This document shows positions 8,362 to 60,393 of a stretch of DNA of 64,000 nucleotides, in pieces. Source of the stretch: Citrifermentans bremense (lineage in GTDB: Bacteria > Desulfobacterota > Desulfuromonadia > Geobacterales > Geobacteraceae); contig NZ_AP023213.1 in the NCBI RefSeq assembly GCF_014218275.1, forward strand, positions 970,001-1,034,000, given 5' to 3'. A program made the position numbers and the translations under genes. The notes beneath the pieces were generated by a model that saw only the letters and a program-made list of their open reading frames with translations, ran no database searches and was not told where the DNA came from. How positions within the stretch are numbered: position 1 is the first letter of the stretch; each line of letters starts with the position of its first letter.

Positions 8362-8365
8362 GAAT

Positions 8366-10493: not shown

Positions 10494-10655
10494 GGGCGGG
10501 GATTGTAGCCGATACTGGAGATATTTGCCACGGAAAGTACGAGATGAAGCTCTTGTTCCCCTTCTTCTTGCCGGGGGAGGCGATTTTTGCTACTGTGCCT
10601 CTTTGCAACAGATTAAGGCGGAGGTGCTGTCAGCGCACCTTCCATCGGGATAGAT

Positions 10656-43213: not shown

Positions 43214-45865
43214 ATGAAAGAAACGGCAAAAAAAGGCAGCCTCCTCTTCTCCCTTTCCTCCCGCCGTCCCTGGCTGGTACTGGCGGCGGCGCTGCTGCTG
43301 ACTGTGCTTTCCCTGTGGCTCACCTGGCAGCGCATGGAGTTTCTGACTGGCAGAGACGACCTCATGCCGCAGAACACCTCCTTCAACCGCGACTTCCAGA
43401 AGTTCAAGGCCGATTTCGGCGACATGGAGGAAATAGCGGTCGTCATCGAGGGGAACGACCCCGAGCGGGTGGGCGCCTTCGGAAGCAAGCTTTACGACAC
43501 GCTCTCCAGGGACAACAAGGTATTCTCCGACGTCTTCTATCCCTACGCCCTCCCCTTTTTCCAGAAAAACGGCCTGCTCTTCATGCCGCTAGAGGACATA
43601 AAGGAACTGCACCATAACCTCGCTCTAGCTGCGCCCGCCTTGAAAGCTCTCTCTGCCTCCCCCTCGGTGCAGACGCTCTTCACGCACCTGACAAAGAGCA
43701 TGGAGCGCTATGTCGCAGGGGACGACTCGCAGCTGCCCAGTCTCCTCTTCATGCTGGACAAACTGGGCGCAGGCTTCAAGAGCTTCGGCGGCGGGAAGGG
43801 GACTCCCCCGTCGCTGGAAACGGTCTTCATGAACCCCGACTCCTCCTTCGCCAAGGCGGGAAGACAGCAGATCCTTACCGCGCTCCCGGTGCGGGATCTG
43901 CAGGGGTTCGTCCCGGCGGGGAAGGCGATAGAGAAGGTGCGCGCCGAGGTGGCGAGGCTGAAAGCGCTCCCGGAATTCAAGGGGGTGACGGTCGGGCTGA
44001 CCGGAACGCCGGTGCTGGAAAATGAGGAGATGGCGACGAGCCAGAACGACATCGCGCTTGCCACTGCGGTCTCCCTGGCGCTGACGGTGATCCTTTTGCT
44101 TTTCGCCTTCCGCGGCGTGCTGAACGTGCTGGCGGCAATGGCGTCGCTGCTGGTCGCGATCTCGCTCTCCTTCGGTTTCGCCACCTTGGCCGTAGGCCAC
44201 CTGAACATCCTCTCCATGGTCTTCGCCGTAATGCTGATAGGGATAGGAATCGAGTACGGGATCCAGGTCGTGCTCCGCTACCAGGAGGAGTTGAACCTGG
44301 GGGCGGGGGAATTGCCTGCCATCAGGACCGGACTTGAAAAAAACGTATGGGCCATCGTCATGGCCGCAGCTACTGTGGCGGCAGCCTTTCTCACCTTCGT
44401 TCTCACCGACTTCAGAGGTATCGCGGAGCTCGGCATCATCGCGGCGGGGGGCGTTGCCATCTGCGTCCTGGTCACCTTCACCGTTCTTCCCGCCATGCTG
44501 GTGCTCCTCTCCCGGCACAGGAAGCCGCACGCGCGCCAAGGGGTGACGCACCTCTCCGAGCACGGCTTTATCCCAAGGCTCCTCTTCGGGCGCCCCAGGC
44601 TGGTCATCGCCCTCACCGTTCTCTGCTGCCTCGCGTCGCTTTATCCCCTTTCCCGGATCGTCTTCGATTACAACCTGATGAACCTCCAGGCGGAGGGGCT
44701 CGAATCGGTCACCTACGCCTACAAGCTGATGAAGAGCAAGGAAAACAGCGGCTATTTCGCCGTGGTCACCGCCAAAGACGAGGCCGAGGCGCGGGAGAAG
44801 AGCGCGCGGCTGGAAGCGCTGCCGACGGTCGATCATGTGGTGAGCCTGCATACCCTGGTACCTGACCACCAGCCGGAGAAGTTAGCAGAACTGGCCGCCA
44901 TCAGGCGCGAGCTTGCCGACGTCAAGCCCTCCCCCTATGAGGAAGAGCTCTCGCTCATGGAACTGCCGACCGTATTCGAAAATTTCAGGAACGCTGCGGT
45001 CGCGCTCAAGGGGAAGCTGGAAAAGGAGCGCCGTCCCGAGGCGGCGCAGGTAGCATCTTTCGTCGCCATACTGGACAAGTTCTTCGCCGGGCTGGAAAAG
45101 GAGCGGGACCGCAACGCCGTAGGGATGCTGCAGGAGTTCCAGGGGGGGATGTTCAGGGAGCTGCCGCAGAAGATAGAGGCACTGAAGCAGAGCCTGGACG
45201 CCTCGCTGGTCACCGCGGCCGATATCCCGGAGCAGCTTCGTGCGCGCTTCGTCGGGAAGAGCGGGCGACTGCTGCTGCAGGTGGCTCCCAAGTGGGAGAT
45301 CTTCAACCGCGAGCCGCTCGAGGAGTTCCTGAGCCAGGTGAAGAGCGTCGATCCGCATGCAACCGGGCAGCCGGTGATGGTGTACGAGTCCATGACCATC
45401 ATGCGCGACGCCTACCGGCTCGCCTTCATCTACGCCTTCGCCGCCATCGTCGTGATCCTTTTGGTCGCCTTCAGGAGCGTCAAATTCGCCGCCATAGGAC
45501 TCGTCCCGCTCATCGTCGGCGTACTGTTCATGGTGAGCGGCATGTGGCTTTTCGGGATCGACTTCAACTCCGCGAACATAATCGTGATGCCCCTGGTGCT
45601 CGGTATCGCTGTCGACTCAGGCATCTACATCATCAACCGCTTCCGGCGTGAAGAGGGGAGCGCCGCGGCGGTTGTTTTGAGCAGCACCGGGGTGGGCGTG
45701 CTTCTCAACACCCTTACCATCATGGCGAGCTTCGGGGCCCTCATGGTGGCGCACCACCAGGGTGTCTTCAGCATCGGGGCCGTCATGTCCCTGGGAATGG
45801 TCGCCTGCCAGTTGGCCTTCATGGTCACGCTCCCGGCGGTGCTTACCCTGGCTGGTAAAAAATGA
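43214..45865 (+). CDS. hpnN: Hopanoid-associated RND/MMPL-type transporter (HpnN)
   Basis: The 883-residue inner-membrane protein has an N-terminal helix, a large periplasmic loop and a block of five to six helices (about residues 280-430). The same plan is then repeated, as in RND/MMPL exporters. The motifs GIGIEYGIQVVLRYQEE and GIAVDSGIYIINRFRRE are the paired helix-4 segments. HpnN moves hopanoids to the outer membrane in other bacteria. A GAGG site precedes the ATG. The 200-base gap to shc holds the two divergent promoters, not resolved here. Confidence 0.94.
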   Translation: MKETAKKGSLLFSLSSRRPWLVLAAALLLTVLSLWLTWQRMEFLTGRDDLMPQNTSFNRDFQKFKADFGDMEEIAVVIEGNDPERVGAFGSKLYDTLSRDNKVFSDVFYPYALPFFQKNGLLFMPLEDIKELHHNLALAAPALKALSASPSVQTLFTHLTKSMERYVAGDDSQLPSLLFMLDKLGAGFKSFGGGKGTPPSLETVFMNPDSSFAKAGRQQILTALPVRDLQGFVPAGKAIEKVRAEVARLKALPEFKGVTVGLTGTPVLENEEMATSQNDIALATAVSLALTVILLLFAFRGVLNVLAAMASLLVAISLSFGFATLAVGHLNILSMVFAVMLIGIGIEYGIQVVLRYQEELNLGAGELPAIRTGLEKNVWAIVMAAATVAAAFLTFVLTDFRGIAELGIIAAGGVAICVLVTFTVLPAMLVLLSRHRKPHARQGVTHLSEHGFIPRLLFGRPRLVIALTVLCCLASLYPLSRIVFDYNLMNLQAEGLESVTYAYKLMKSKENSGYFAVVTAKDEAEAREKSARLEALPTVDHVVSLHTLVPDHQPEKLAELAAIRRELADVKPSPYEEELSLMELPTVFENFRNAAVALKGKLEKERRPEAAQVASFVAILDKFFAGLEKERDRNAVGMLQEFQGGMFRELPQKIEALKQSLDASLVTAADIPEQLRARFVGKSGRLLLQVAPKWEIFNREPLEEFLSQVKSVDPHATGQPVMVYESMTIMRDAYRLAFIYAFAAIVVILLVAFRSVKFAAIGLVPLIVGVLFMVSGMWLFGIDFNSANIIVMPLVLGIAVDSGIYIINRFRREEGSAAAVVLSSTGVGVLLNTLTIMASFGALMVAHHQGVFSIGAVMSLGMVACQLAFMVTLPAVLTLAGKK

Positions 45866-45887
45866 GGCTAACGGTTTTGGGGTGGCG

Positions 45888-46475
45888 ATGAAGAAGAAGG
45901 AATCGTTACGCGGCGCGGTGCCGCTCTCTCACTTTTACCTGAGACAGGTGGTGCGCCCGGGGGACCTGGTGCTGGACGCGACCTGCGGCAACGGGTTCGA
46001 CACGCTGCTTTTGGCGGAGCTTGCAGGGGAGGGGGGGCAGATCTGGGCCTTCGACATCCAGCCCCGCGCCATCGCCGCGACCCGCACGCTCCTGGAGCGG
46101 GAAGGGCGCCTGGCGGCCGTGCACCTATTGGAGGTGGGGCACGAGAGGTTGGCTGAGTTCGTCCCTGCCGGGCTCGCTGCGGCCGTGTTCAACCTGGGGT
46201 ACCTCCCCGGCGGCGAGACTTCTCTGGTCACGGACCCGGTACGGACCGTGTCGGCGCTGGCGCAGGCGGCGAAGCTCCTCAAGTCCGGGGGGATCCTCAC
46301 GGTAGCCCTGTACACCGGGCACGAAGGGGGCCCCGAGGAGGCGCAGGCCGTGCACGAGTGGGGCGCCTCGCTTTCCCCCAGGGAGTACAACGTCTGGTGC
46401 AGCCGGCAGTTGAACCGGCCGCCGGTGGCGCCGTACCTGGTCCTGGTGGAGCGGATACGAGGAGGGTCATGCTAG
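45888..46475 (+). CDS. SAM-dependent methyltransferase of the YtqB/MnmM type
   Basis: The 195-residue protein has the SAM-binding motif LDATCGNGFDTLLLAE and the hallmark FNLGYLPGG, which define the YtqB/rRNA-methylase-like family. Characterised members (MnmM) methylate the wobble 5-aminomethyl-2-thiouridine of tRNA. GGGGTGG lies just before the ATG. It sits between hpnN and hpnI and overlaps hpnI by seven bases. Whether it is only a passenger in the hopanoid operon is unknown. Confidence 0.87.
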   Translation: MKKKESLRGAVPLSHFYLRQVVRPGDLVLDATCGNGFDTLLLAELAGEGGQIWAFDIQPRAIAATRTLLEREGRLAAVHLLEVGHERLAEFVPAGLAAAVFNLGYLPGGETSLVTDPVRTVSALAQAAKLLKSGGILTVALYTGHEGGPEEAQAVHEWGASLSPREYNVWCSRQLNRPPVAPYLVLVERIRGGSC

Positions 46476-47623
46476 AGCATATACTTCCATTCCTGATAAC
46501 TGCGCCGGCGCTCGGCTATGCCGTTTTCACGCTCCACTGCGGCCGCAACTTCTTCGCAGGGCAGCTGCCGCTTCCGGACCACGCACCTCCCGTCTCCATC
46601 CTGAAGCCGGTCAAGGGGGTGGACGGCGACAGCTTCGAAAATTTCGCCTCCTTCTGCCGCCAGGATTACCCGCAGTACCAGATCGTCTTCGCGGCGGCAT
46701 CTGCTGCCGATCCCGTCATCCCCATCATCGAGCGCCTCATGGCGGCCTTCCCGCAGGTAGACATATCCCTTGTCGTCGACGGCGCCATCCACGGCGCCAA
46801 CTACAAGGTGTGCAACCTGATGCATGCCTACGCGAAAGCCAAGTACCCGCTGCTCATCGTCTGCGACAGCGACATCCGGGTCGAAAGCCATTATCTGCGC
46901 CGGGTCTGCGCGCCATTTTCGGATCCCCAGGTGGGGCTTGTGACATCGCTTTACCGCAGCTCCAGCGTGAAGGGGGTCGGCTGCGCCATAGAGGCGCTCG
47001 GCTTTTGCTGCGAGATGGTCCCGAACGTGATGGCTGCCGTGAAGCTTGAAGGGCTGAGCTTTGCCCTGGGCGCCTCAATGGCGCTGCGCCGGGAGGCGCT
47101 GGAGCGGATAGGAGGGTTCGAGGCGCTGGTCGACTACCTGGCGGACGACTACCAGCTGGGGAACATGATCCACAAGAAAGGGTTCCGCCTGGAGCTTTCC
47201 CCGCACTTCGTGGAGAGCGCCATGCGCGGCGATGAGACGGTCTCGGAGGTGATGGCGAGGCAGCTTCGCTGGGGGAGGACCATGCGGGTCTCCCGCCCCG
47301 GCGGCTATCTTGCATCAGGGATCACGCTCCCGTTCCCGGCGGCCCTTTTGGCGCTCATCGTATCTGCCTTTTCAGCGTGGGGCGTTGCGGCAGCCGCCCT
47401 CCTTTATCTCGTGCGGGGCGCGGTGTCGGTGAGCTACAGCAGGTCTCTGGTAAAGGACCGGCTCCTGCCGCGCTGGCTTTGGCTCCTGCCGCTGCGCGAC
47501 GGGCTCGCTTTCGCGGTGTGGGCGCTGTCGCTTCTGGGAAACCGGGTGCGCTGGCGTGGAGAGCTGTTCCTGCTTGAGAAGGGGGGAAAGATAGTGGAGT
47601 TGGGAGCCGTTCCGGAACGATAG
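46469..47623 (+). CDS. hpnI: Hopanoid glycosyltransferase (HpnI), GT2/GT21 type
   Basis: The 384-residue protein has an N-terminal membrane anchor and a GT-A domain with VCDSDIRV (metal DXD), LADDYQLG and the RQLRWGRT (Q/RXXRW) motif. C-terminal membrane helices follow. It resembles ceramide glucosyltransferases and the hopanoid N-acetylglucosaminyl transferase HpnI. Translation starts at ATG 46469 with GAGGAGGG upstream, overlapping the preceding gene. hpnK and hpnJ are not in the window. Confidence 0.9.
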   Translation: MLEHILPFLITAPALGYAVFTLHCGRNFFAGQLPLPDHAPPVSILKPVKGVDGDSFENFASFCRQDYPQYQIVFAAASAADPVIPIIERLMAAFPQVDISLVVDGAIHGANYKVCNLMHAYAKAKYPLLIVCDSDIRVESHYLRRVCAPFSDPQVGLVTSLYRSSSVKGVGCAIEALGFCCEMVPNVMAAVKLEGLSFALGASMALRREALERIGGFEALVDYLADDYQLGNMIHKKGFRLELSPHFVESAMRGDETVSEVMARQLRWGRTMRVSRPGGYLASGITLPFPAALLALIVSAFSAWGVAAAALLYLVRGAVSVSYSRSLVKDRLLPRWLWLLPLRDGLAFAVWALSLLGNRVRWRGELFLLEKGGKIVELGAVPER

Positions 47624-47648
47624 CGTCCAGGTACCCACCCTCGTCCAT

Positions 47649-47727
47649 GCTCCCGCCCCCGGAGGGGGGGGGTAGGGGAGGGGGACGGTCTGGCCGCTTT
47701 GCTTCCCCCCCTCCTGGGGGAGGAGCG
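47649..47727. repeat. Imperfect inverted repeat of C/G runs
   Basis: CTCCCGCCCCCGGAGGGGGG is mirrored by CCCCCCCTCCTGGGGGAGG. It lies between convergent hpnI and the DUF2905 gene and may act as a bidirectional terminator or be an intergenic repeat. Confidence 0.65.
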
Positions 47728-47759
47728 GTGAGCAGGGTGACGAGTGGCCGGGGGGCATG

Positions 47760-47972
47760 TTATCTGCGGAAGAACCAGAGGATGAACGAGAGAATCAGCG
47801 AGATGATGATGCTGGTGGCAAGCGGGAAGTAAAAGGTGAAGTTATCCCGTTTCACGTAGATGTCCCCGGGGAGCCTCCCAAGCCACGGGAAGCGGCCGGC
47901 GAAGGTGAAGAGCACGCCGATGGCGGCGATGATCAGACCCAGGATGATGAGCGATTTCCCGAAGGAGGGCAT
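47760..47972 (-). CDS. DUF2905 family small membrane protein
   Basis: The 70-residue protein has two hydrophobic helices (about residues 8-25 and 48-66) separated by the conserved FPWLGRLPGDIYVKRDN segment that marks DUF2905. It is an inner-membrane protein of unknown function. AGAGG precedes the ATG. It lies downstream of queH but is separated by a terminator. Confidence 0.9.
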   Translation of the reverse strand: MPSFGKSLIILGLIIAAIGVLFTFAGRFPWLGRLPGDIYVKRDNFTFYFPLATSIIISLILSFILWFFRR

Positions 47973-48016
47973 GGTCTAACCTCTATAAAGGGTGTTTTTT
48001 GACGGCTACGAAAAGT

Positions 48017-48053
48017 AAAAGGGGACGGGCACCTGCGGAGCCAGTCCCCTTTT
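48017..48053 (-). terminator. Terminator after queH
   Basis: AAAAGGGGAC pairs with GTCCCCTTTT, and on the minus strand TTTTACTTTT follows. It separates queH from the DUF2905 gene. Confidence 0.85.
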
Positions 48054-48070
48054 AGCCGTCGCCGGGCCTG

Positions 48071-48601
48071 TTACTTCCTGACGTACCTTTCCTTCTCGCT
48101 GTAGATGCAGCCGCAGTACTTCTGGCGGTACAGCCCCATCTCCTTGGAAAGGTTTATCCCTTCCTGCCAGCCGCTCCTGAAGTCCTGGTAGTGGAATTTC
48201 ACGCCGTAGCGCTCTGCGAGTTTATCGCCGAACTCTCGGATCAACTCCTGGTTTTGGTACCTGCTGTAAAGCAAGGTGGACGAGAAGCTGGGGAAACCCA
48301 TCAGGGCGGCAGCCTTTGCGGTCTCCTCCAACCGGGAGCGGTAGCAGTAGGCGCAGCGGGACGCTGGTTCCCCCGCCACCTGCGACAGGAATTCTTCGAG
48401 CTGGTACTCCTCCCGGTAATGCACCTTCAGCTCCACCATCTCGGCGTACTTCTTCAGTGCCTCCATCCGGAGCTTGTACTCGGTGTAGGGGTGTATGTTG
48501 TGGTTGTAAAAAAGGCCGGTGACATCCACCCCGCTCGACCTCAACTCCTTCACGGGGTAGATGGCGCACGGCCCGCAGCATATGTGCAGTAACAGTTTCA
48601 T
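48071..48601 (-). CDS. queH: Epoxyqueuosine reductase QueH
   Basis: The 176-residue protein has the QueH cysteine set: CCGPC at residues 8-12, CAYC in the middle and CGC near the C-terminus. These bind an iron-sulfur cluster and a second iron. It reduces epoxyqueuosine to queuosine in tRNA. The start at 48601 has AGGAAAG upstream; the longer frame to 48727 is rejected because it would run into the cytochrome gene. It follows the cytochrome gene by seven bases, which may be only chance. Confidence 0.94.
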   Translation of the reverse strand: MKLLLHICCGPCAIYPVKELRSSGVDVTGLFYNHNIHPYTEYKLRMEALKKYAEMVELKVHYREEYQLEEFLSQVAGEPASRCAYCYRSRLEETAKAAALMGFPSFSSTLLYSRYQNQELIREFGDKLAERYGVKFHYQDFRSGWQEGINLSKEMGLYRQKYCGCIYSEKERYVRK

Positions 48602-48608
48602 GTCTTTC

Positions 48609-50456
48609 CTAAGGGCGCGCTCCGCCCGGTCCACCCAGGAGGTAATTGATTGCGTCTGCCTTGACCTTGGCGAACTCGGCCGCGTAGCCGGGGCCAGGGA
48701 GCTGCGCCGCGATGTAGTTGCCGCCAAGGATGGGGTTGCTGAGCGACACCTTGCCGGTCTTGCTGTTCACGGCGAGGGTGGCGTTGGTGATGGCGTCTTC
48801 CACGTCGTCGTCAAGCGCATGGTTGCTGAGCCAGTCGATGGAATCGTAGATGAGCCGCTTGGTGTAGATCCCGTTGTGAGCGAAGGCGCCGGGGTCGTTT
48901 TGGAGCAGTCCCGAGTTGAAGAACGCGCCCATGGTGTTGGCGCCTCCCCCGGCGAAGAAGGCGTTGTAATCCGAGTTCTTGTTAGCCAGGGGACGCACCT
49001 TCGAACGCGTCGGGTTCAGCGTGTCGTCCGGCAGCGACGGGTCGGTCTTAAGCACGTTCAGCATGGCGATCGCCGCGGCGAACCCTTCTTTCTCGGTCTG
49101 CAGGAAGTTGGCGCTCATCGCCGGTGCCTGGGAAACCTGGCCGTTATGGCAACGGGCACAGGTCCGGCTGGTTATCGAGGATATCTTCCCGGTGCTGTCC
49201 TCGGCCACCGGCATGAAGAGGTGCGTGTTGTCGCTGTTCATGTGGCAGGAGACGCAGGGACCGTCGTAGCCGGTGCCGTGATCGTTGGCTATGCCGATCT
49301 TTGCATGGAGGAAGAGGGTCGGGACGTAGTTTCTGCCCGGGAACTCGTACCCCCCCTTTCTGAAGAGGTTGGCTGCGGCCGCGCGGTCGTGGGCGCTCGG
49401 GCTGTTGGTGTTGCTGAAATCGATCCCCGCGAGGACTGCGTCGTAGATCATCGAGCCTATGCCGCGCCCGCTATGGCAGGGGATGCAGACGTTGGAAGCA
49501 GCCGCGTCGGAATAGAGAGTCGCCTTGTTGTTCAGCTTCACCGTGGGGGAGCTGTTCGACGAGGAGAAGTTGTAGTAGATGGTGACCGGCGGCACCGAGC
49601 GGGTAGCCCAGCTGTAGGCGCGGCCCGCGCCGTTGTCATGGCAGACGTTGCAGGTGGTCACTTCCTTGGTCTTATCCGGGGAGGGGGTGTCCGCCGGCTG
49701 CGCCGCTCCCGGTGCGACGGTGCGGGGGTAGTTCTGCACCACCTGGTATCCCGGGCCGGCGAAGGGGCGGACGTCCTGGAAGCTGCTGGTCACGAAGTGG
49801 ATGTAGCCGGTCGCGGTGTGGCAGCGCACGCAGTAGTACTCGAAGGTGCTCTCCGCCGGTTGGTAGCTGCCGCGCGTCTTGAAGTCGTACCTGGTCCTCG
49901 CCCCTGTCAGGACGTCGGCGTGGCCGGTCGTGGCCCAGTCTCGGTTCACGTTGATGGCGGAAGTGGGATCGTGGGGGTTGTGGCAGTTGCGGCAGTTCCC
50001 CACGTAGTTGGAGCTGACGTAGCTGGCGCGGTACCCGCTGTTGCCAAAGCTCGCGGTCATGTTGCCGAAGTGCTGCGGCGCCTGCGCCACCATCACGTCG
50101 CGCGGATGTGACAGCCCGTGGCATTTGCCGCACTTGCCGGTGGAGTCGGGGTTCTTGGTCGCCAATCCGCTTCCGCCGCCGTGGCATTGGGAACAGGAGT
50201 TGGGATGGCCGGCGTGGGGCTCATGGCAGTCGGCGCATCCCGCCCCGTTTTTGAGGTTATGTGCGGAAGCGCGCCATTCGTCGGCGATGAGCGCCCCCGT
50301 CCCCGGGGAGGTCCAGGTGCCGTGGCAGCTCAGATTCATGCATCCCTGGGATGCCGCAAGCTTCGAAGTCGGCGCGCCGTTCTCGTTGGAACCGCCGCCG
50401 CAACCGGTGAAAAGCACCGGCACGAGGATGAGGAAAAGGAGAGTTTTTAGCTGCAT
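48609..50456 (-). CDS. Ten-heme-motif cytochrome lipoprotein
   Basis: The 615-residue precursor has lipobox FTGC (Cys19). Nine CXXCH sites are present (CADCH, CSQCH, CGKCH, CRNCH, CVRCH, CNVCH, CIPCH, CVSCH, CARCH), preceded by one CX4CH site, CMNLSCH. All lie in the first two thirds; the last 180 residues lack hemes. It is unlike the OmcA/MtrC proteins of this window. A role in extracellular or outer-membrane electron transfer is likely but inferred. It is divergent from the heme-porin gene at 50718 across 261 bases. Confidence 0.9.
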   Translation of the reverse strand: MQLKTLLFLILVPVLFTGCGGGSNENGAPTSKLAASQGCMNLSCHGTWTSPGTGALIADEWRASAHNLKNGAGCADCHEPHAGHPNSCSQCHGGGSGLATKNPDSTGKCGKCHGLSHPRDVMVAQAPQHFGNMTASFGNSGYRASYVSSNYVGNCRNCHNPHDPTSAINVNRDWATTGHADVLTGARTRYDFKTRGSYQPAESTFEYYCVRCHTATGYIHFVTSSFQDVRPFAGPGYQVVQNYPRTVAPGAAQPADTPSPDKTKEVTTCNVCHDNGAGRAYSWATRSVPPVTIYYNFSSSNSSPTVKLNNKATLYSDAAASNVCIPCHSGRGIGSMIYDAVLAGIDFSNTNSPSAHDRAAAANLFRKGGYEFPGRNYVPTLFLHAKIGIANDHGTGYDGPCVSCHMNSDNTHLFMPVAEDSTGKISSITSRTCARCHNGQVSQAPAMSANFLQTEKEGFAAAIAMLNVLKTDPSLPDDTLNPTRSKVRPLANKNSDYNAFFAGGGANTMGAFFNSGLLQNDPGAFAHNGIYTKRLIYDSIDWLSNHALDDDVEDAITNATLAVNSKTGKVSLSNPILGGNYIAAQLPGPGYAAEFAKVKADAINYLLGGPGGARP

Positions 50457-50575
50457 AGCATGACCTCCGGGAATTTTAGACGCTACCTTATAGCATTTCC
50501 CAGAATAAAAATGTAGTCAAAAATGAAGATTAGCTCACAAGGCGGAGACTTTTACTCTCATAGACTTTTGTTAAG

Positions 50576-50605
50576 TTGACTTCACATCTGCAATATTGTA
50601 ATAAT
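50576..50605 (+). promoter_or_regulatory. Probable sigma-70 promoter of the heme-porin operon
   Basis: TTGACT is followed after 18 bases by AATAAT (five of six consensus bases). The start would lie near 50612, about 105 bases before the coding start at 50718. Confidence 0.45.
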
Positions 50606-50717
50606 CTACTCTCGCTGCTTCCTGCGCTTTCTATGCAATTTTTTGAATAAGGCGAATTGTTATTTATTAGTTTATTTTTATCTGACTTTGATTTTTTTAA
50701 TACTGCAGGAGACGAAC

Positions 50718-52034
50718 ATGTTCTTAAAGAGACAAACAGCAGCTGCCATGCTCACCCTGGGCTTTGTTCTTTCGCCTCTGCTTGTTCCCGAAAACGCCGA
50801 CGCGATACCCGCCTTCAGCCGGCAACACAAGACCGAGTGCTCCACCTGCCACACGATATACCCGGAGTTGAACGAATTCGGTGACGCCTTCCTCAAGAAC
50901 AGCTACGTCTGGCCCCACAAGAAAAAAGGCGCGAATCAGCCCAGCGCCGGGGCACAAGGGGGCGAACCGGCCGGCAACGAATGGGCAACCATCTCGGGCC
51001 TGCCCCAGTACGTCCCCATCTCTCTCACCGCGACCGCCGACTTGGCCTATGACGACGACGCCTTCGACGGCAACAAGCTCAACCTCTCCACGAGGTCTCT
51101 GACGCTGCACGCCGGCGGCTCTTTCCGGGACGTGGCAGGCTTCTTCGCCACCTACAACCTCTATTCCCAGGGTGGGTTCCACACGACCTCGGCGCCGTTT
51201 ACCCCTGCCAGCAACACCAACAACCCGCCCAACAACGATCCCGACATCGACGAGCTGTTCTTCGTCTGGCGCCACGCGCTAGACTCGCCGGTGAACCTCA
51301 AGGTGGGGCGTTTCGAGCCCAAACTGTCGCTTTGGAAGAAGAGCAACCGCATCCTCCCCGTTCCGTCCTATGCCTCCACCACCTACCTGGTGGGCATTTC
51401 GCCCTTCAGCAGCGACGCGACCGAGGACGGGGTGGAACTGAACGCGGTGGTGGGCAACCGCCTGTTCGTCGCGGCAGGGGTCGTCGACAGGGACGGCCAG
51501 GACCGGGAGGACGGCTACGGGCATATTTCCTACAAGTTCGGCGGGACCAACCTGAAAGGGGAGGAGCCCGAGGTGGATCTTGAAAGCGACAGCGTCTGGG
51601 ACTTCCTGTCCGTCACCTGCGGCGTCTTTGGCTACTGGGGGCAAAACGGCGAGATCAACAACGGCATCGCCCAGAACCTCAACAACTTCCGCCGCATCGG
51701 CGCCGAGGCCGACATCCTTTACAAGCGGCTGCACCTGAAGGGGAGCGGCAGCTTCGGCAGGGATTCCAACCCGACATTCTCCGTGGCGCGGCGGGAGGTC
51801 GACAGCCGGGCGTACACGCTGGAAGGCGAGTACTACCTGGGGGCGCCAATCAACCTGGTACCGCTCTTCCGCTACGAGCATCTGGACACCGGCGAGGGGG
51901 GGACCAAGCGTTTCATCCCCGCGCTGGCCTACTCCCCGCTGCAGAACTTGAAGCTTTCCCTGGAATACATCCGCAGCAATGCGCCGGAAGGAAACAGCAA
52001 CACAGCCTTCGCCTCTCTCGCCTTCAGTTTGTAG
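50718..52034 (+). CDS. Monoheme cytochrome-porin fusion, Cyc2-like outer membrane protein
   Basis: The 438-residue protein has a signal peptide ending ADA-IP. A single heme site CSTCH (residues 41-45) follows in the context PAFSRQHKTECSTCH, then PELNEFGDAFLKN. The remaining 370 residues are amphipathic strands of an outer-membrane barrel ending in Phe-Ser-Leu. This layout, a small heme domain fused to a porin, and the PxFxRQ...CxxCH...PxLNxFGxxF pattern resemble Cyc2, the iron-oxidase family; the similarity is from memory. AGGAG precedes the ATG, and the upstream extension to 50643 is rejected. It is first in an operon with a monoheme cytochrome and a chemoreceptor. Confidence 0.82.
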   Translation: MFLKRQTAAAMLTLGFVLSPLLVPENADAIPAFSRQHKTECSTCHTIYPELNEFGDAFLKNSYVWPHKKKGANQPSAGAQGGEPAGNEWATISGLPQYVPISLTATADLAYDDDAFDGNKLNLSTRSLTLHAGGSFRDVAGFFATYNLYSQGGFHTTSAPFTPASNTNNPPNNDPDIDELFFVWRHALDSPVNLKVGRFEPKLSLWKKSNRILPVPSYASTTYLVGISPFSSDATEDGVELNAVVGNRLFVAAGVVDRDGQDREDGYGHISYKFGGTNLKGEEPEVDLESDSVWDFLSVTCGVFGYWGQNGEINNGIAQNLNNFRRIGAEADILYKRLHLKGSGSFGRDSNPTFSVARREVDSRAYTLEGEYYLGAPINLVPLFRYEHLDTGEGGTKRFIPALAYSPLQNLKLSLEYIRSNAPEGNSNTAFASLAFSL

Positions 52035-52108
52035 CGGGGACGCCGAAGAAAACCAAAGATGGCGGTATTGCCGCCGTTTATTCACCGTCGGGAGGATTTA
52101 AAAAGAAA

Positions 52109-52468
52109 ATGAAAAAGTTCCTCGTCACCACGCTTATTATCGCAGCGACCGCAACCACTGCCCATGCCGGGCTCAAAGTCGTCGGCAGGGGGGACGCCAT
52201 GCGCCTCGACCCCTCCTCCTACCCGCCGGCGATGAAGGCGAACTACGACATCATGAGAGTGAGGTGCGTCAAGTGCCACACCCTGGAGCGCACCATCGTC
52301 GCCATCCAGACCGGCGTCGCCCCCATCTCGGGGCAGCCCTTCGACCGCAGCGCCACCAAGGCCTACGGCATCAAGATGCTCAGAAAGCCCGACTCCAACA
52401 TGTCCAAGCCGGAAGTGAAGGCCACGGTCGACCTGATGAACTACCTCCTGAGCGAAGCGGGGCAATAA
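52109..52468 (+). CDS. Periplasmic monoheme c-type cytochrome
   Basis: The 119-residue precursor has a signal peptide ending AHA (residue 20) and one heme site CVKCH (residues 53-57). Met residues in [12 protein letters not shown] can supply the axial ligand. It is probably a small soluble electron carrier working with the heme-porin upstream. A GGGAGGATT sequence lies a little upstream of the ATG. The chemoreceptor gene starts four bases after its stop codon. Confidence 0.88.
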
Positions 52469-52472
52469 CGCG

Positions 52473-54677
52473 ATGAAAGACCTCACGCTGCGTACCCGGC
52501 TGATAATCGCCTTCCTGATCATGGCCCTTTTGGTCGCGTTCACCGGCGGTTTCGGCGCGCTGGGCATGAAAAGGGTCGGCGGACAGATCCAGACCATCCT
52601 GGAGCAGCTCTCCAAGCAGCAGAAGCTGGTGCTGCTCATGGGGGTGACCCAGAAGTACTGCCACGTGAGCCTGATGCAGGCTGCGCTGGTGCGTACCGAC
52701 CCCGATAAGGTGGAGGAATACGTCGAGGACTACCGCATGAAGCGGGACACCCTCTTGAGCCAGGCGCAGATCATCCTGGACGGGAACAAGAAGCTCGGCG
52801 TGCTTCCGGCGGCAAAGGGGAGCGTGGTGGAGAAGCGGACCAGGGAATTCCTGGTTAGCTGGGCCGCCTTCGAGCAGGTGGCGGACGAGCTTATCGCCAG
52901 AAAGGAGCAGCTCTTCAAGGGGGTAACCCCCGGGGTGCTGAACCAGGCAGCCAAGGACGCGCTGGCCGACGAGAAGCTGAACCAGCTGGCCAACGAGGCG
53001 ATCACCGAGGCCAACGACAAGGCGAAGGCCGATCTGGACGACATCCTGGTGGAGGTCGGCAACCAGATGAACCAGGCCAACGCCCAGGTGACCGAGATCC
53101 AGAAGTCCGCAGGGGTCACCTTCGCGGTGGTAATTCTTCTGGCCGTCGCCGTGGCCTTGGCCCTCGGCATCATGATCACGCGCAACATCGTCTCCAGGGT
53201 CAGCGCCATCGGCGAAGCGGTGAACCGCGGGGCCGAGGGCGACCTCACCGCGACCACCTCGCTGGACTCGCACGACGAGATCGGCAAGCTGGGAAGCAAT
53301 TTCAACGAGATGGTGGACAAGCTCTCCGGCATGATCGGGAAGGTGCTCCGCTCCGCGGCGGAACTGGCCGGGATCTCCGACACCATGGCCCAGGCCTCGC
53401 ACTCCGTGGTCGCTTCGGCCAAGACCCAGGCGGAAAGCGTCTCCAAGACTTCCGCAGCCATCGTGCAGATAACCACCTCGGTGAAAGGGGTCGCCCACGG
53501 CGTCGATTCCCTCTCCATCTCGGCTTCCGAGAGCTCCTCCTCGATCCTGGAGATGGCCTCGAGCGTCGAGGAGGTGGTCCAGAACATGGAGAACCTGGCC
53601 CTGTCGGTGAACGAGGTCAGCTCCTCCATCGTGGAGATGGGCGCTTCCATCAAGCAGGTGGGCAACGGCGTAGTGAGCCTCATGGAGGTATCCACCGCCA
53701 CCGCTTCCTCGGTGATGGAGATGGACAGCTCCATCAAGCAGGTCGAGAGAAACGCCAACGAGACCGCGGCGATCTCCAAGGCGGTGCGCGTGGACGCCGA
53801 GACCGGCCGCGAGGCGGTCGAGGCGGTGATCAACGGGATGCAGGAGATAAAGCGCGCCTCCCTGATCACCAGCGAGGTGATAGCCACCCTGTCCGAGCGT
53901 GCCGCGGACATCGGCGACATCCTGTCGGTCATCGACGAGGTGGCCGAGCAGACCAACCTCCTGGCGCTGAACGCGGCGATCATCGCGGCCCAGGCCGGCG
54001 AGCACGGCAAGGGCTTCGCCGTCGTGGCGGACGAGATCAAGGAACTCTCCGAGCGCACCTCCAGTTCCACCCGCGAGATCTCCCAGGTGATCCGGGCGGT
54101 CCAGGACGAGACCCGCAGGGCCGTCGAGGCGATCGATCAGGCCGAGCGCTCCATCGGTGACGGGGAGCTCCTATCCCAGAAATCGGGCGAGGCGCTGGCG
54201 AAGATCGTCGTCGGGGTCAACGAGGCTACCGCCCAGGTGGGGGAGATCGCCCGCACCACGGTCGAGCAGGCCAAGGGAAGCCAGATGATCCGCGAGGCGA
54301 TGGAGCAGGTCTCCGAGATGGTGGCGCAGATCGCCAAGGCGACCAAGGAGCAGGGACAGGGGAGCGAGCTCATCATGGGAGCGGTGGAGCACATGAAGGG
54401 GCTCACCTCCCAGGTGCTATCCTCCACTCGCGAGCAGAACAAGGTCGGCAACCTGATCGCCCAGTCCACCGAGAGCATCACCGAGATGATCCGCCACATA
54501 AAGCGCGCCTGCGACGAGCAGACCCGCGGCAGCGAGCAGATCGTGGTCTCGGTGGAGGACATCCAGCAGGCGACCGACGCGAACCTCGAGGCGACGCGGG
54601 TCATGGACGAGGCGGTCTACAAGCTGTTCCGCCAGACCGAGCTTTTGAAAAAGGAAGTGGAAGCGTTCAGGATCTGA
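52473..54677 (+). CDS. Methyl-accepting chemotaxis protein co-encoded with cytochromes
   Basis: The 734-residue receptor has a first membrane helix (residues about 9-31), a helical periplasmic domain (32-212) and a second membrane helix (213-236). A HAMP domain and a long cytoplasmic signalling coil follow, with the tip [20 protein letters not shown]. Cys63-His64 lie in the first sensor helix. No CXXCH or CheR pentapeptide is present. It begins four bases after the monoheme cytochrome gene, so it is almost certainly in the same operon. It may report the redox state of those cytochromes to the flagellar or pilus motility system; this is inference. Confidence 0.94.
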
Positions 54678-54707
54678 ATTCCTTCCCCAGGCAAACCGGC
54701 AACCTTC

Positions 54708-54791
54708 CCAGCCCTCCCCGCGGGGGCTGGGGATTTCACCCGCCCAGAGAGCCCCATCCGCATCCCCCTTTTTCTTCAGGGGGACTTTTTG
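54708..54791 (+). terminator. Tandem terminator hairpins after the chemoreceptor
   Basis: CCAGCCC pairs with GGGCTGG at 54708-54730. A second stem TCCCCCT/AGGGGGA at 54763-54784 is followed by TTTTTGTTTTT. The second is a clear Rho-independent terminator. Confidence 0.85.
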
Positions 54792-54896
54792 TTTTTGCAG
54801 TTTCCCGGTTTTTTCGTTAAATAATCTGCTGTCCGGATGGGCCGCTGCGGCCCTCACCTGTTCCGGCGTGCGATTTTCACCAAAAGGAGGAACCTG

Positions 54897-55703
54897 ATGG
54901 GCAGGATTTCAGATAGGTTTGCAAGCTTGAAAGAGCGGGGCGAAAAGGCGCTGGTGACCTTTGTCACCGCCGGCGACCCGGACCTGGCAACGACCGAAAA
55001 GGTGGTGCTCGAACTGGAGAGGGCGGGGGCCGACCTGATCGAACTGGGGGTTCCCTTTTCAGACCCCATGGCCGACGGGCCGACCATCCAGCTCTCCTCG
55101 GACCGCGCCCTTGCCTCGGGCACCACGCTCCCGGCGATACTGGAGCTGGTGACAAGGCTGAGAGAAAAGACCCAGGTCCCGATCGTGCTGATGGGGTACT
55201 TCAACCCCATCTTCGCCTACGGTTCCGAGCGCTTCGCCTTCGACGCGGCACAGGCAGGTGTCGACGCGTTGCTGGTGGTGGATCTTCCCCCGGAGGAGGC
55301 CGCGGAGCTCAAGGGAGCGACCGACAGCTGCGGAATAGACCTCATATTCCTGCTCACGCCGACCTCCGACGCATCCCGAATCGCGTCCGTCAGGCGCCAG
55401 GGGAGCGGCTTCATCTACTACGTTTCCGTCACCGGCGTCACCGGCGCCAGGAGCGCTGTGGCCGACACGCTGGCGGCCCGGGTCACCGAGGTGCGCGGGG
55501 CCCTGGAGCTGCCGCTCGTGGTAGGTTTCGGGATCTCCACCCCCGAACAGGCGCAGGAGGTGGCACGGATGGCCGACGGCGTGGTGGTGGGAAGCGCGCT
55601 GGTCAAGTATTTCGAGAAGTACCAGGGGGCCGAGCTCCTGAAAGAGCTGGGAGGCTTCGTCGCCGCGCTAAAACAAGGGGTGCTGAAGGGGACCCTGCAG
55701 TAA
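54897..55703 (+). CDS. trpA: Tryptophan synthase alpha subunit
   Basis: The 268-residue TIM barrel has the catalytic Glu49 ([12 protein letters not shown]) and Asp60 (MADGPTIQ) at the same numbers as in E. coli. It also has the loop VTGVTGAR and the phosphate site GFGISTPEQ. It cleaves indole-3-glycerol phosphate to indole, which passes to TrpB. ATG 54897 follows AAGGAGGAA. No trpB is adjacent in the window; accD follows, an order seen in related bacteria. Confidence 0.97.
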
Positions 55704-55748
55704 CCGCTTTTATTTCGGCTGGTTATCTTGCCAAATCCACCGTTTTAT

Positions 55749-55777
55749 TTGACATAGCTGGTGCGATCTGGTAAGTA
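55749..55777 (+). promoter_or_regulatory. Possible sigma-70 promoter for accD
   Basis: TTGACA is followed after 17 bases by TAAGTA, in the 133-base gap between trpA and accD. The -10 box is weak. Confidence 0.4.
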
Positions 55778-55836
55778 TCAGCGCCAGATTTACGACTTTT
55801 TAAAACAATAGGGGCTTACCCCAGAAGAGGGCACAT

Positions 55837-56685
<849 letters not shown>

Positions 56686-56708
56686 AGGGAGGCGTCACCC
56701 GAACCACG

Positions 56709-56745
56709 GGCGCCGGATCAGCTGTTGGCTGGCCGGCGCCTTTTT
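56709..56745 (+). terminator. Terminator after accD
   Basis: GGCGCCGG pairs with CCGGCGCC around 16 bases and is followed by TTTTTGTTT, about 25 bases after the stop codon. Confidence 0.85.
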
Positions 56746-56863
56746 GTTTGCTGCGCCCACCAGACGCTGCACCAGAATTAACGTTCCCCTTCGCTAAGGC
56801 TCATAGAGGAATACCGGGGAGCAAGAGTTATCTTCCCACTAATGAACATGCGTGGTGTACGTT

Positions 56864-56883
56864 CCCCCCTTTGCGAAGGGGGG
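56864..56883. repeat. Short palindromic intergenic repeat
   Basis: CCCCCCTT and AAGGGGGG surround TGCG. Such C-run/G-run palindromes recur in G/C-rich genomes. Otherwise the gap 56746-56993 shows no gene or promoter. Confidence 0.6.
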
Positions 56884-56993
56884 CAGGGGGGATTTGCCTC
56901 TCGATGCACCTCGCCCGGCCCGGAGCGCTGCCCGCCCGCCGGCCCCTATTTTATGGACTTTTTCATGCACTTTACCTATAATCCCCGCCTGTC

Positions 56994-58268
56994 ATGACCT
57001 ACGCCGAAACGCTCAGCCATATCTACGCCCTGGGGCGTTTCGGGATGAAGCCGGGGCTCTCCCGGATCTCCCCGCTTCTCGCCGCCCTGGGAAATCCGCA
57101 AGAGCGGTTCCGGTGCGTCCACGTGGTCGGCACCAACGGCAAGGGATCTACTGCCTCCTTTCTCAGTTCCATACTCAGCGCCGGAGGGTACCGGACCGGG
57201 CTCTTCACCTCGCCGCACCTGATCTCCTTCACCGAGCGCATCCGCATAGACGGCAACGAAATAAGCGAAGAAGAAGTGGTACTCTTGACCGCGCGCGTCA
57301 TGGCCGCCGCGCCGCCGGAGAGCACCTTTTTCGAGATAGTGACCGCCCTGGCCGTCTTGTACTTCGCGGAGAAGGGGGTCGAGGTCGCGGTGTTCGAGGC
57401 GGGGATGGGCGGGAGCCTTGACGCAACCAACGCCCTGGATGGCATCCTCTGCGCGGTGACGCCGGTATCGCTGGAGCATACCGAGTACCTGGGGGAGAGC
57501 CTCGCGGAGATCGCCCGCGAGAAGTCAGGGATCTGCAAGCCGGGCGCCCCGCTGGTGTCGGCCTCCCAGCACCCCGAGGCCGAGGCGGCGATCGCGCGTC
57601 GCGCCGAAGAGATCGGTTCCCCCCTGTACCGCCAGAAGGAGTCCTTCGACGCCTTCTGGCAGGAGCGCAGGCTCTGCTACCGCGGCATCGGGGTGACGCT
57701 GGACGGCATGGAGGTCGGGCTTTACGGACGCTACCAAAGCGGCAACGCGGCGCTGGCCTTGGCTGCGGTCGAACTTCTCGGGGGGCTCGGATTCCCGCTG
57801 CCGCCGCAGGCGATGAGGGCGGGCGTTGCGCGCGCCTTCTGGCCCGGCAGGATGGAGCTCCTCCCAGGGGCGCCGCGCGTGCTTTTGGACGGTGCCCACA
57901 ACCCGGCCGGGGCCGAGGCCCTCGCCGAGGCGCTCGCCGACATCCCGCGCGCGAGGCTCCTCGTGGTGGTGGGGGTGATGGGGGACAAGGAACTCTCCGG
58001 GATACTGGGGCCGCTGCTTCCACTGGCCGATGAAGTTTTCTGCGTGACACCCGCCCTGGAAAGGGCGCTTGCAGGCGAGGAGATCGCCCGCTTCTGCCTT
58101 GCCGCCGGAGTGATGGCGCAGGACGCAGGTTCCGTGATGCAGGGGCTGGAACAGGCGCAAAGCGCCGCCTTTGACGAAGACCTGATACTGGTCTGCGGTT
58201 CCCTATTCACCGTGGGCGAGGCCCGCGGCTACCTGCTCGCGCGCCGTTTCGAGCCCTTTCGCGGGTGA
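56994..58268 (+). CDS. folC: Bifunctional folylpolyglutamate/dihydrofolate synthase
   Basis: The 424-residue Mur-ligase-type protein has the ATP loop VVGTNGKGSTASFLSS, the SPHLISFTERIRI segment, EAGMGGSLDATN and the C-terminal LDGAHNPAG. It adds glutamate to (dihydro)folates in the cytoplasm. No good ribosome site is seen before ATG 56994, so the start is less sure than the identity. lptD follows 70 bases later. Confidence 0.95.
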   Translation: MTYAETLSHIYALGRFGMKPGLSRISPLLAALGNPQERFRCVHVVGTNGKGSTASFLSSILSAGGYRTGLFTSPHLISFTERIRIDGNEISEEEVVLLTARVMAAAPPESTFFEIVTALAVLYFAEKGVEVAVFEAGMGGSLDATNALDGILCAVTPVSLEHTEYLGESLAEIAREKSGICKPGAPLVSASQHPEAEAAIARRAEEIGSPLYRQKESFDAFWQERRLCYRGIGVTLDGMEVGLYGRYQSGNAALALAAVELLGGLGFPLPPQAMRAGVARAFWPGRMELLPGAPRVLLDGAHNPAGAEALAEALADIPRARLLVVVGVMGDKELSGILGPLLPLADEVFCVTPALERALAGEEIARFCLAAGVMAQDAGSVMQGLEQAQSAAFDEDLILVCGSLFTVGEARGYLLARRFEPFRG

Positions 58269-58338
58269 CGGGGGACGGGGGCTTGCCGCGGAGGTTCTGC
58301 GGAAAGATCACTGCTAAAGATCTGTTTTTTGGAGTGCA

Positions 58339-60393
58339 ATGAAAGCTGCAAAAGCCGGCTGGCTTCTCACATACCTGCTGTTACTGGCGGCCCCCGCAAT
58401 GGGCGAACCTGCCGTCCCCGTCGATAAAGAGGTGACGCTGCAGGCCAACGACCTATCCATCGACGTTCCGACACAGGTCTACCGCGCCCAGGGGGAGGTA
58501 CGCATCACCCAGGACGGGCTTTCCCTGCTCGCCGACAGCGTGGTCTACCACCGGCTCACCGGCGAGGCGAAGGCGCAGGGGGGCGTGCTCATGGAGCGCA
58601 GCGGCGACACCATGAAGGGAGACAGCCTCTCCCTGAACCTCTTGTCCCAGGAGGGGGTGCTTCTAAACGGGCAGCTTTTCGTCAAGAGGTCTAACATGCG
58701 GTTGCGCGCGGAGCGCCTGGAGAAGACGGGCCCCGCCGACTACAAGATGACCAAGGGGAGCTTCACCACCTGCGACGGCGACAAACCCAGCTGGAGGTTC
58801 GAGGCGAGGCAGGTGAAAGTCACCCTTGAGGATTTCGCCACCGCTAAGGACGCCGTCTTCTACGCCGGCGACGTCCCCGTCTTCTACACCCCGTACCTCA
58901 TCTTTCCGGCCAACACCGAAAGGCAGTCCGGCCTTTTGCTCCCCAGGCTCGGCTATTCCTCCAAGAAGGGGTTCTATTACGACCAGCCTTACTACTGGGC
59001 CATAAATCCGAGCCAGGAGGCGACCTTCGACCTGGACCTGGAAAGCTCACGAGGGGTCGGCGCAGGGGTGGATTACCGCTACCTGAGGCCGCACGGAAGC
59101 TCTGGGAGGTTGCAGGCCTTCGGCATCTACGATACCCAGAAATCCGAGTTCCGCGGCGAGGTGGACCAGCGGCACCTGGAGTTCCTCACCCCGAGGCTCA
59201 CCCTGGCCTCCAACATCCATCTCATCACCGACCGCCGCTATTTCCTGGACTACGGCGAGCTTTCCGGAGAGTACAACCGGCAGTACCTGGAGTCGACGGT
59301 CTCCTTCGACCAGCGCTGGGAGCGTAGCGCCCTGTTCGGAGAGCTGCGCTACACCAACGACCTCGAGGCCCCCAACAACGACACCACCTTGCAAAGGCTC
59401 CCCACCGTCGGTTTCATCGAGGCCGGCGAGAAGGTGGGGCCGGCTTACTTTTCCATGGATAGCCGGTTCACCAACTTTCAGCGGGAGGCGGGAGCCACCG
59501 GCCAGCGCCTGCAGCTGCATCCCCGGCTCGCCTGGTACGCCAAGCCAGCCGGCTTCCTCGACCTCTCCCTTTACGGAGGCTATCAGCAGCGCATGTACAA
59601 CGCGCAAGGGGAGGAAAGCGAAACCGGGTGGCGGCAGCTGGGGCAGGCGGACGCAGGGGGAACGCTTTCTCTGCCGCTGGAGCGGGTGTACGACGGGCGG
59701 CTGCGGCACCTTCTGATCCCTGCGGTCGAGTACAGCTTCGTACAGCAGCGGCACGACGAGGACCTTCCCTTCTTCGATTACGACGACCGGGTGCTCGGTC
59801 AAAATGCCGCCAGGTGGTCGCTCACCAACGTGGTGACCCGGAAGTACGCAGAGCCCGACGGGGTTCCCGAGTACCGCGATCTTCTCTACCTGAAGCTCTC
59901 CCAGGGGTACTGGTTTTCCGGTCAGCGTCGAGACCTCCTCACCCTGGTGGACGAGGGGCACCGGCTCACGGACCTGATGCTGGAGGGGGTGATCACCCCG
60001 GTGCAGCGACTCTCGGTGGCCCTCGATACCCGGTACAACACGACCGACAGCAGTTTCTCGACGGCAAATACGGTTATCGAGCTGAAGGGAGAGGGGCGCG
60101 ACAAGGCGAAGTTGGGATACCGCCACAGCCGCGGGGAAGTCGACTACCTCGAGGCCGGCTTCACCTTGCCCGCAGCAAGGGACATCACGACCGACATGCT
60201 GTGGCGCTATTCCGCGGACAGCGGAAAGCTTCTGGAGTCCCGCTACGCGGTCGAGTACCGGCGCCAGTGCTGGAGCGTTACCTTCACCTATAGCGAGCGG
60301 GTCAGCAGCCGCAACGTCCCCGGGGAGCAACAGTTCAGCGTCAACTTCACGCTGGCCGGAATAGGTTCGCTCGGCCCCTTGCGGGCGTTCTAG
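58339..60393 (+). CDS. lptD: LPS-assembly protein LptD
   Basis: The 684-residue protein has a signal peptide ending MGEP, an N-terminal OstA/LptA-like jellyroll (about residues 30-170) with KGSFTTCDGDKPSW, and a large C-terminal beta-barrel ending in Phe. With LptE it inserts lipopolysaccharide into the outer leaflet. It keeps only two mature cysteines (FTTC and RRQC), fewer than the four of E. coli LptD, so one disulfide at most. GGAGTG precedes the ATG. Confidence 0.95.
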   Translation: MKAAKAGWLLTYLLLLAAPAMGEPAVPVDKEVTLQANDLSIDVPTQVYRAQGEVRITQDGLSLLADSVVYHRLTGEAKAQGGVLMERSGDTMKGDSLSLNLLSQEGVLLNGQLFVKRSNMRLRAERLEKTGPADYKMTKGSFTTCDGDKPSWRFEARQVKVTLEDFATAKDAVFYAGDVPVFYTPYLIFPANTERQSGLLLPRLGYSSKKGFYYDQPYYWAINPSQEATFDLDLESSRGVGAGVDYRYLRPHGSSGRLQAFGIYDTQKSEFRGEVDQRHLEFLTPRLTLASNIHLITDRRYFLDYGELSGEYNRQYLESTVSFDQRWERSALFGELRYTNDLEAPNNDTTLQRLPTVGFIEAGEKVGPAYFSMDSRFTNFQREAGATGQRLQLHPRLAWYAKPAGFLDLSLYGGYQQRMYNAQGEESETGWRQLGQADAGGTLSLPLERVYDGRLRHLLIPAVEYSFVQQRHDEDLPFFDYDDRVLGQNAARWSLTNVVTRKYAEPDGVPEYRDLLYLKLSQGYWFSGQRRDLLTLVDEGHRLTDLMLEGVITPVQRLSVALDTRYNTTDSSFSTANTVIELKGEGRDKAKLGYRHSRGEVDYLEAGFTLPAARDITTDMLWRYSADSGKLLESRYAVEYRRQCWSVTFTYSERVSSRNVPGEQQFSVNFTLAGIGSLGPLRAF

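Follow-up and report, generated by a model that had tools for sequence, protein, structure and literature searches.

The window analysed here is a stretch of 64,000 nucleotides from Citrifermentans bremense (contig NZ_AP023213.1, positions 970,001 to 1,034,000), and the subject of this account is a group of genes within it in which a chemoreceptor stands beside putative redox proteins of the cell envelope. Three genes follow one another closely on the plus strand: a heme-porin that resembles Cyc2 (50718-52034, 438 residues, with an ATG at 50718 and a stop ending at 52034; the open reading frame lister gave a TTG at 50643 as its start), a monoheme cytochrome c (52109-52468, 119 residues, one CVKCH motif) and a methyl-accepting chemotaxis protein, or MCP (52473-54677, 734 residues). 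The gaps of 74 bp between porin and cytochrome and of 4 bp between cytochrome and receptor agree with the preliminary description of this DNA and, judged from spacing alone, the three genes probably form an operon. Divergent from the porin, on the minus strand, lies the gene of a decaheme, lipoprotein-like cytochrome (48609-50456, 615 residues), separated from it by a conserved intergenic region of 261 bp (50457-50717) that would hold the promoters of both.

The set of heme-porin, monoheme cytochrome and chemoreceptor is real and is kept across genera. Cytochrome, porin and receptor sensor were searched separately in the window's own genome and in 57 relatives, 58 genomes in all, and the coordinates of the matches compared; G034, G045 and G053, where the porin matched over a short N-terminal part only, were left out of the count. 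Among the 35 genomes of the window's family, f1, 31 have both cytochrome and receptor, four have neither and none has one alone (Fisher p 1.9e-5, uncorrected for kinship). The gene order, which might have been peculiar to this genome, is thus shared, since in all 31 the cytochrome and receptor lie on one strand, adjoining or one gene apart and within 1.1 kb, with a match-to-match gap of 7-15 bp in 21, 65-308 bp in six and 955-1074 bp in four, the last being occupied by a binding-protein gene. A full porin match is found in 29 f1 genomes and adjoins the cytochrome in every one; over all families, and counting the window's own genome, the figure is 38 of 38. Outside f1 the association is looser: in f2 (four genomes) two have the cytochrome, each time adjoining a receptor, and there is no porin; in f3 (ten genomes) all have the cytochrome, with the receptor adjoining in four and the porin present in six, always beside the cytochrome; and in f4 (nine genomes) seven have the cytochrome, one of them weakly (G048, E 5e-4, two stops), and none the receptor, the porin being present in three, again beside the cytochrome. 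A wider draw from the family found the cytochrome in 36 of 48 genomes. In one genus (g12) none of eight genomes has it. When 117 genomes of the class were drawn, the porin profile matched in 37 and the cytochrome profile in 45, all of the window's order except for two f6 genomes in another order.

Pairing of the cytochrome with a signalling gene can be followed beyond the porin. Cytochrome and receptor occur together at L096, L097 (genome 81% complete), L099, L100 and L101, whose genomes give no match to the porin, and at L098, likewise without a porin match, the two are kept with a binding-protein gene between them. At L102 and L103 the cytochrome stands, again without a porin, with the other signalling-type pair described below. 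The retention of these pairs in porin-free genomes indicates that the cytochrome is what stays with the signalling gene. L099 (G016) offers an apparent natural loss: unlike in other members of its genus, the decaheme and porin genes are absent between queH and the cytochrome (8228-10660), and the cytochrome frame and the contig-truncated receptor frame are both open (queH, like trpA, accD, folC and lptD below, is a presumed label). In the f6 genomes (L189, L190) the order is changed, with the receptor transcribed away from the porin and the cytochrome following the porin; no decaheme gene was seen there in 18 kb.

The signalling partner itself may be exchanged. The contigs of named genomes were scanned with the porin alignment by means of two peptide patterns, which gave 84 stretches, 57 of them confirmed. 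These 57 loci span Citrifermentans, Geomonas, Geomesophilobacter, Geotalea, Geomobilimonas, Oryzomonas, Geobacter sp. and metagenome-assembled genomes; G. sulfurreducens and G. metallireducens are not among them, in a two-pattern scan that may omit records. The receptor is the partner at 24 loci, a pair consisting of a DUF4388 protein and a protein with several transmembrane segments at 19, one gene of that pair at two and neither at 12, and at no locus are both partners present. DUF4388 is, we presume, the domain named PATAN, and the pair is called the PATAN pair here. Its multi-transmembrane protein (249 residues) has no family match, and the DUF4388 protein has about 321 residues; the Pfam scores of three such proteins lie narrowly above the 25-bit cut-off (29.5 and 26.0) or below it (22.1). 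At L088, L092, L095, L192 and the 19 named loci the two genes lie 5' of the decaheme, porin and cytochrome genes, all in one direction. In Synechocystis, the pilus motor PilB is an interaction partner of PATAN regulators (PMC10519157, PMC7690835).

In the porin tree (58 rows), which was rooted at the midpoint only, the PATAN loci fall in one clade of 22 rows (100/100; 19 labelled PATAN, two of these with one gene only). Its three PATAN-free rows are L154 and L158, on contigs of 3.6 kb and 5.5 kb, and L148, where 4 kb upstream lack the pair. Eight loci without either partner form a separate clade (100/100). The remaining rows are receptor loci and L130, which is cut off by the contig end just 3' of its porin, and a long branch leads to the f6 pair.

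The porin carries a single heme motif, near its N-terminus, in a region that reads AIPAFSRQH-KTE-CSTCH-TIY-PEL. An AlphaFold2 model built on an alignment of 23 sequences has 16 beta strands, at a mean predicted local distance difference test score (pLDDT) of 61.6 and a predicted template modelling score of 0.63; residues 19-96, which include the heme motif, fall below a pLDDT of 50 and are poorly modelled. Foldseek matches of the model are ordinary or general porins, neither porin nor cytochrome has a Pfam or NCBIfam match at E<=1, and a search of its own genome with the porin gave one match. To our knowledge, the porins of the Pcc and Ext conduits of Geobacter carry no fused heme. Cyc2 was characterised by Keffer et al. 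(2021) by AXPXFAR[QK][TY] before CXXCH, PXL after it and a 16-strand porin (PMC8406198). The window protein is similar in its signal-peptide-like start, its one N-terminal CXXCH, a PXL four residues on (CSTCH-TIY-PEL) and its 16 predicted strands, and its 438 residues agree with the Cyc2 size and architecture (at least 365 residues, with CXXCH and a porin of 16 strands in one protein), with the strands predicted and the heme region modelled at low confidence. It departs from the strict upstream motif in reading AIPAFSRQH; the strict form is found at none of 56 named loci, the relaxed form A-x-P-x-[FY]-[AST]-R occurring at 55 of them; L164, which is additional to these 56, has a short porin frame in which such a heme motif was not found. 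Agreement on PEL among the named loci is partly selected, because one of the two search patterns contains PEL, and the f6 pair reads AIPAFARQY but has PER in place of PEL.

Alignment by hhalign of the 23-porin profile against six plasmid-borne proteins, taken as Cyc2-type from their motif, context and mutual homology, gave a probability of 98.8 and E 1.3e-16 over 333 columns, with the barrel weakly aligned; the strict Cyc2 motif is present in two of the five plasmid rows that show the region. Unlike Cyc2 as published, the window porin has the genes of a decaheme lipoprotein and of a receptor linked to its own, and from its sequence we call it Cyc2-like rather than Cyc2. Three of the plasmid loci, from Caballeronia, Methylocystis and Ideonella (L168 3501-5459, L169 3327-7097, L170 3525-5609), have a Cyc2-type gene and then c-type cytochrome genes; in the Caballeronia plasmid the annotated start of the Cyc2-type gene falls 3' of the heme motif.

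The small cytochrome begins with what looks, by eye, like a signal peptide. Its candidate distal heme ligands are M90 and M98, and C53, C56, H57 and M90 are invariant across 25 rows; its matches among solved structures are generic cytochromes c only, at E 0.3 or worse. The decaheme protein has nine CXXCH motifs and one CX4CH (Cytochrom_c3_2 5.9e-08, Cytochrome_C7 4.9e-07) and an LFTGC that we take to be a lipobox, and no solved relative of it was found at E<=0.001. A homologue is present at 52 of the 57 named loci (some cut by a contig end), divergent in 26 and co-directional in 26. At L086 (3785-7872) a tandem pair of decaheme paralogues lies 5' of the porin.

The third gene encodes a chemoreceptor with MCPsignal (PF00015, 1.6e-44) and HAMP (PF00672, 5.6e-10) domains and two hydrophobic stretches, at residues 3-33 and 208-241, that would be its transmembrane segments. 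The model of its sensor is a four-helix bundle (pLDDT 81.8), closest in fold to the sensors of Vc1313, MCP2201 and Tsr, all at E >0.01, and the Pfam families TarH (20.5 against a cut-off of 25.2) and 4HB_MCP_1 (18.4 against 27) fall short of their cut-offs. The architecture is thus that of a four-helix-bundle MCP, with two transmembrane segments, a periplasmic domain modelled as a helical bundle, HAMP and the signalling domain. None of 52 rows, several of which are one genome twice, has a CXXCH in the periplasmic domain, and the features of MCPs with covalently bound heme (CXXCH and a PAS-like fold) are both lacking in the window receptor. The cytoplasmic part is long, with about 207 residues from the end of HAMP to the hairpin tip and 242 thereafter; the tip itself (window 53949-54030, 16 residues) lies where an E. 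coli-type receptor has NAAVEAARAGEQGRGF. The genome holds 40 MCP-domain matches in 37 frames by our own count and two flagellin-domain matches, which together make swimming possible. Elsewhere in the window a second MCP signalling domain lies at 3128-3661 (genome 973128-973661).

The N-terminal parts of 30 receptors were placed in a second tree. One group (97/98) takes in 19 receptors from f1 and f3 that are linked to the cytochrome, that of the window among them. A single receptor ortholog throughout, which we considered, is not borne out by the remainder of the tree, from which it also follows that the receptors at loci with other flanking genes are not strict orthologues of the window's. 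The linkage may reflect either repeated recruitment of related receptors or an old linkage lost in some paralogues; repeated recruitment would favour a coupling of receptor and cytochrome and old paralogy would not, so that the tree cuts both ways.

Considering what these genes might do together, the preliminary description had proposed a complete route by which electrons would pass from an external donor or acceptor into the motility machinery. As stated this is unsupported. It left out the decaheme lipoprotein at 48609-50456; some relatives hold the cytochrome-receptor pair without a porin; and a transfer of electrons through c-type heme into the receptor is ruled out by a periplasmic domain free of CXXCH in 52 of 52 rows. 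Given that absence and the predicted four-helix bundle, a signal by contact is more likely than a c-type heme route, and a non-covalently bound heme in the receptor is possible. A redox switch at the conserved periplasmic Cys63 specific to this module was also rejected, the residue being Ser in L100 and L101 and Cys in two of four unlinked homologues.

We tentatively prefer, at a little under even confidence, to see the group as a modular periplasmic redox-sensing unit whose receptor reads the cytochrome by contact. The decaheme lipoprotein and heme-porin would exchange electrons with a partner outside the cell, be it Fe(II), Fe(III), an electrode or a shuttle, and would thereby decide whether a periplasmic monoheme cytochrome dedicated to the unit is oxidised or reduced. 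In its two states this cytochrome would dock differently on the receptor encoded beside it, at the four-helix-bundle domain, and the receptor would signal by way of HAMP to a CheA kinase; the output may be swimming or some other Che-controlled behaviour. What is observed in its favour is the gene content, the pairing of cytochrome and receptor and its persistence without the porin, the presence of a family receptor beside cytochrome or porin in unlike neighbourhoods, and the replacement of the receptor by the PATAN and membrane-protein pair in one porin clade. A bolder version, possible but doubtful, would make the group a wire from the outside to a chemoreceptor: the decaheme protein and heme barrel would read the redox state of a mineral, an electrode or Fe(II), a private cytochrome would ferry it, and a receptor free of c-type heme would dock with that cytochrome, the front end being modular and feeding, according to clade, a chemotaxis array or a PATAN device, which belongs to a type known in cyanobacteria to act on the motors of type IV pili. 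If true, this would supply a candidate for the long-sought Fe(II) or mineral receptor of Geobacter-type bacteria.

A number of observations weigh against the contact-sensing unit that we prefer. In the other two of the four f2 genomes a receptor homologue occurs without the cytochrome, in six of the ten f3 genomes the cytochrome is present and receptor homologues are only distant and unlinked, and extra copies of the cytochrome occur without a receptor (61 matches in 50 genomes). In the receptor tree, a branch that holds the receptors from L077, L080 and the two f6 genomes also holds one unlinked homologue, the f2 receptors (L100, L101) fall among two unlinked homologues and L078 stands alone; at the five loci where the flank differs, the receptors lie outside the core clade of 19, and linkage on the tree is no more clustered than in shuffles (five changes, shuffled mean 5.6). 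The window sensor shares 32% identity with the f6 receptors and 36 to 47% with the four unlinked homologues. The Ser and Cys states of residue 63 noted above point the same way, as does the PBP_like_2 binding protein that lies between cytochrome and receptor at L082, L083, L090 and L098 (1.7e-17 for the L083 copy). In the clade of eight partnerless porins the cytochrome is present and in most loci the decaheme gene too, neither an MCP nor a PATAN gene is linked to them within the stretch, and neighbours include an FAD-dependent oxidoreductase and parts of an ABC transporter; this clade suits a respiratory conduit at least as well. Finally, because trpA, accD, folC and lptD follow the receptor in most f1 and f3 loci examined, its adjacency to the cytochrome there is partly old synteny. 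This flank is absent at L077, L078, L101, L189 and L190, where a family receptor still stands beside the cytochrome or, divergently, the porin; L080, L099 and L100 end too close to the receptor for the flank to be judged.

A serious rival, if on balance an unlikely one, is a porin-cytochrome conduit for extracellular electron transfer, in Fe(II) oxidation or in Fe(III) or electrode reduction, to which a co-regulated energy-taxis receptor is attached, the cytochrome mainly carrying electrons. The decaheme lipoprotein, porin and periplasmic cytochrome resemble a conduit, the clade of eight has no linked signalling gene, and the porin is homologous to Cyc2-type proteins, whose plasmid loci have a c-type cytochrome gene following in five of six and upstream in the sixth. 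Such a conduit would explain less readily why the pairing of cytochrome and receptor survives in porin-free genomes, why another signalling-type pair replaces the receptor in one clade and why the periplasmic carrier has one heme motif, against eight hemes in the characterised Pcc protein (PMC4245776). That related receptors stand beside cytochrome or porin at five loci with other flanks, in three families and with the order changed in f6, tells, like the strict co-presence and co-absence in f1, against a neighbourhood kept by common descent only and free of functional coupling; even with the conserved trpA-accD-folC-lptD flank and a receptor linkage unclustered beyond chance on its side, we regard that explanation as very improbable.

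It is also conceivable, and to us quite improbable, that the receptor senses a small molecule, either directly in the four-helix bundle or through PBP_like_2, and that the cytochrome is co-transcribed without being its ligand. The sensor fold is nearest to the amino-acid and organic-acid receptors Vc1313, MCP2201 and Tsr, at the E-values given above, and the four loci with an interposed binding protein fit this. The binding protein, however, lies outside the conserved core, in which the cytochrome is included (31 of 31), and L106 has the cytochrome and binding-protein pair without a receptor, so that the binding protein may go with the cytochrome. Further arrangements of these genes occur. At L083 (8286-13990) the decaheme and porin pair is flanked by two units of cytochrome and PBP_like_2, likely a duplication, and in G019 the module lies in two places, decaheme, porin and cytochrome at L081 and cytochrome, binding protein, receptor and trpA at L082. 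At L132 and L134, two loci of the partnerless clade, an opposite-strand frame with seven heme motifs lies 3' of the cytochrome, with frames that look by eye like a response regulator and a kinase a few kilobases on.

Some features of the non-coding DNA complete the picture of the locus. In an alignment of the intergenic region from 11 genomes (the window, Citrifermentans bremense, G014, seven Geomonas and one metagenome-assembled genome), a block of 31 bp at 50570-50600, GTTAAGTTGACTTCAC..GCAATATTGTA, is nearly invariant, and a second conserved block lies on the decaheme side. With the first goes a sigma-70-like promoter directed at the porin, with TTGACT at 50576 and a second hexamer ending at 50605; promoter-like sites number two against 0.8 in shuffles, and a search for the conserved box gave one match in the window and none in 100 shuffles. 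A flagellar sigma factor tying these genes to motility was rejected as a candidate, the conserved box looking sigma-70-like (the sole promoter type scanned). In the gap between porin and cytochrome a hairpin at 52057-52079 on the plus strand, a possible attenuator or processing site, is no more stable than shuffled sequence (z -1.0, 29 of 200 shuffles folding as well). Terminator-like sites number six against 4.9 in shuffles, hence the terminator-like hairpin 3' of the receptor (54763-54784, plus strand) is weak. An Rfam scan of 44000-60000 at the gathering threshold gave zero matches.

The module singles out one receptor, among the 37 MCP frames of the genome, that is linked to envelope redox genes, and it is a testable candidate for the sensing of minerals or electrodes outside the cell. 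If a chemoreceptor had a soluble cytochrome for its ligand, extracellular redox chemistry would be coupled to behaviour in a new way. The preliminary description knew of no system of this composition, and the gene set is apparently undescribed, no account of it having been found in openly licensed PubMed Central papers judged by title and the start of the abstract. Cyc2, porin, chemotaxis and methyl-accepting are all mentioned in two of these papers, PMC10734462 and PMC9123188. A survey of Geobacter chemotaxis genes from 2008 mentions heme MCPs, and the word cytochrome does not occur in its available text (PMC2577667); the word chemotaxis does not occur in PMC10654088 or PMC4245776.

Several described systems approach the module from one side or another. 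GSU0582, GSU0935 and DcrA are MCPs of Geobacter-like bacteria that take their redox input in the periplasm, with the heme in the PAS-like domain of the receptor itself, whereas in the window the heme motif is on a separate protein (PMC8396549). In Shewanella, congregation and energy taxis at insoluble acceptors require both mtrBC/omcA and an MCP; that MCP, SO_2240, is encoded apart from SO_1776-1779 and is modelled as sensing the energy state rather than a dedicated cytochrome (PMC5789149). The EsnABCD network of G. sulfurreducens, in which an MCP, CheA and CheW affect growth on electrodes, is similar in this signalling, and differs in that EsnA lacks a putative periplasmic domain and the network as named includes no porin or cytochrome (PMC5585712). 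The Pcc and Ext conduits of Geobacter, finally, combine a porin with an outer-membrane multiheme cytochrome and a periplasmic cytochrome (PMC4245776, PMC5585712). By its sequence, the window's decaheme protein, with ten heme motifs and LFTGC, would correspond to the outer-membrane multiheme lipoprotein of Pcc; the periplasmic multiheme cytochrome has no counterpart in the linked small cytochrome, with its one heme motif. Each of these nearest known systems shares one feature with the module.

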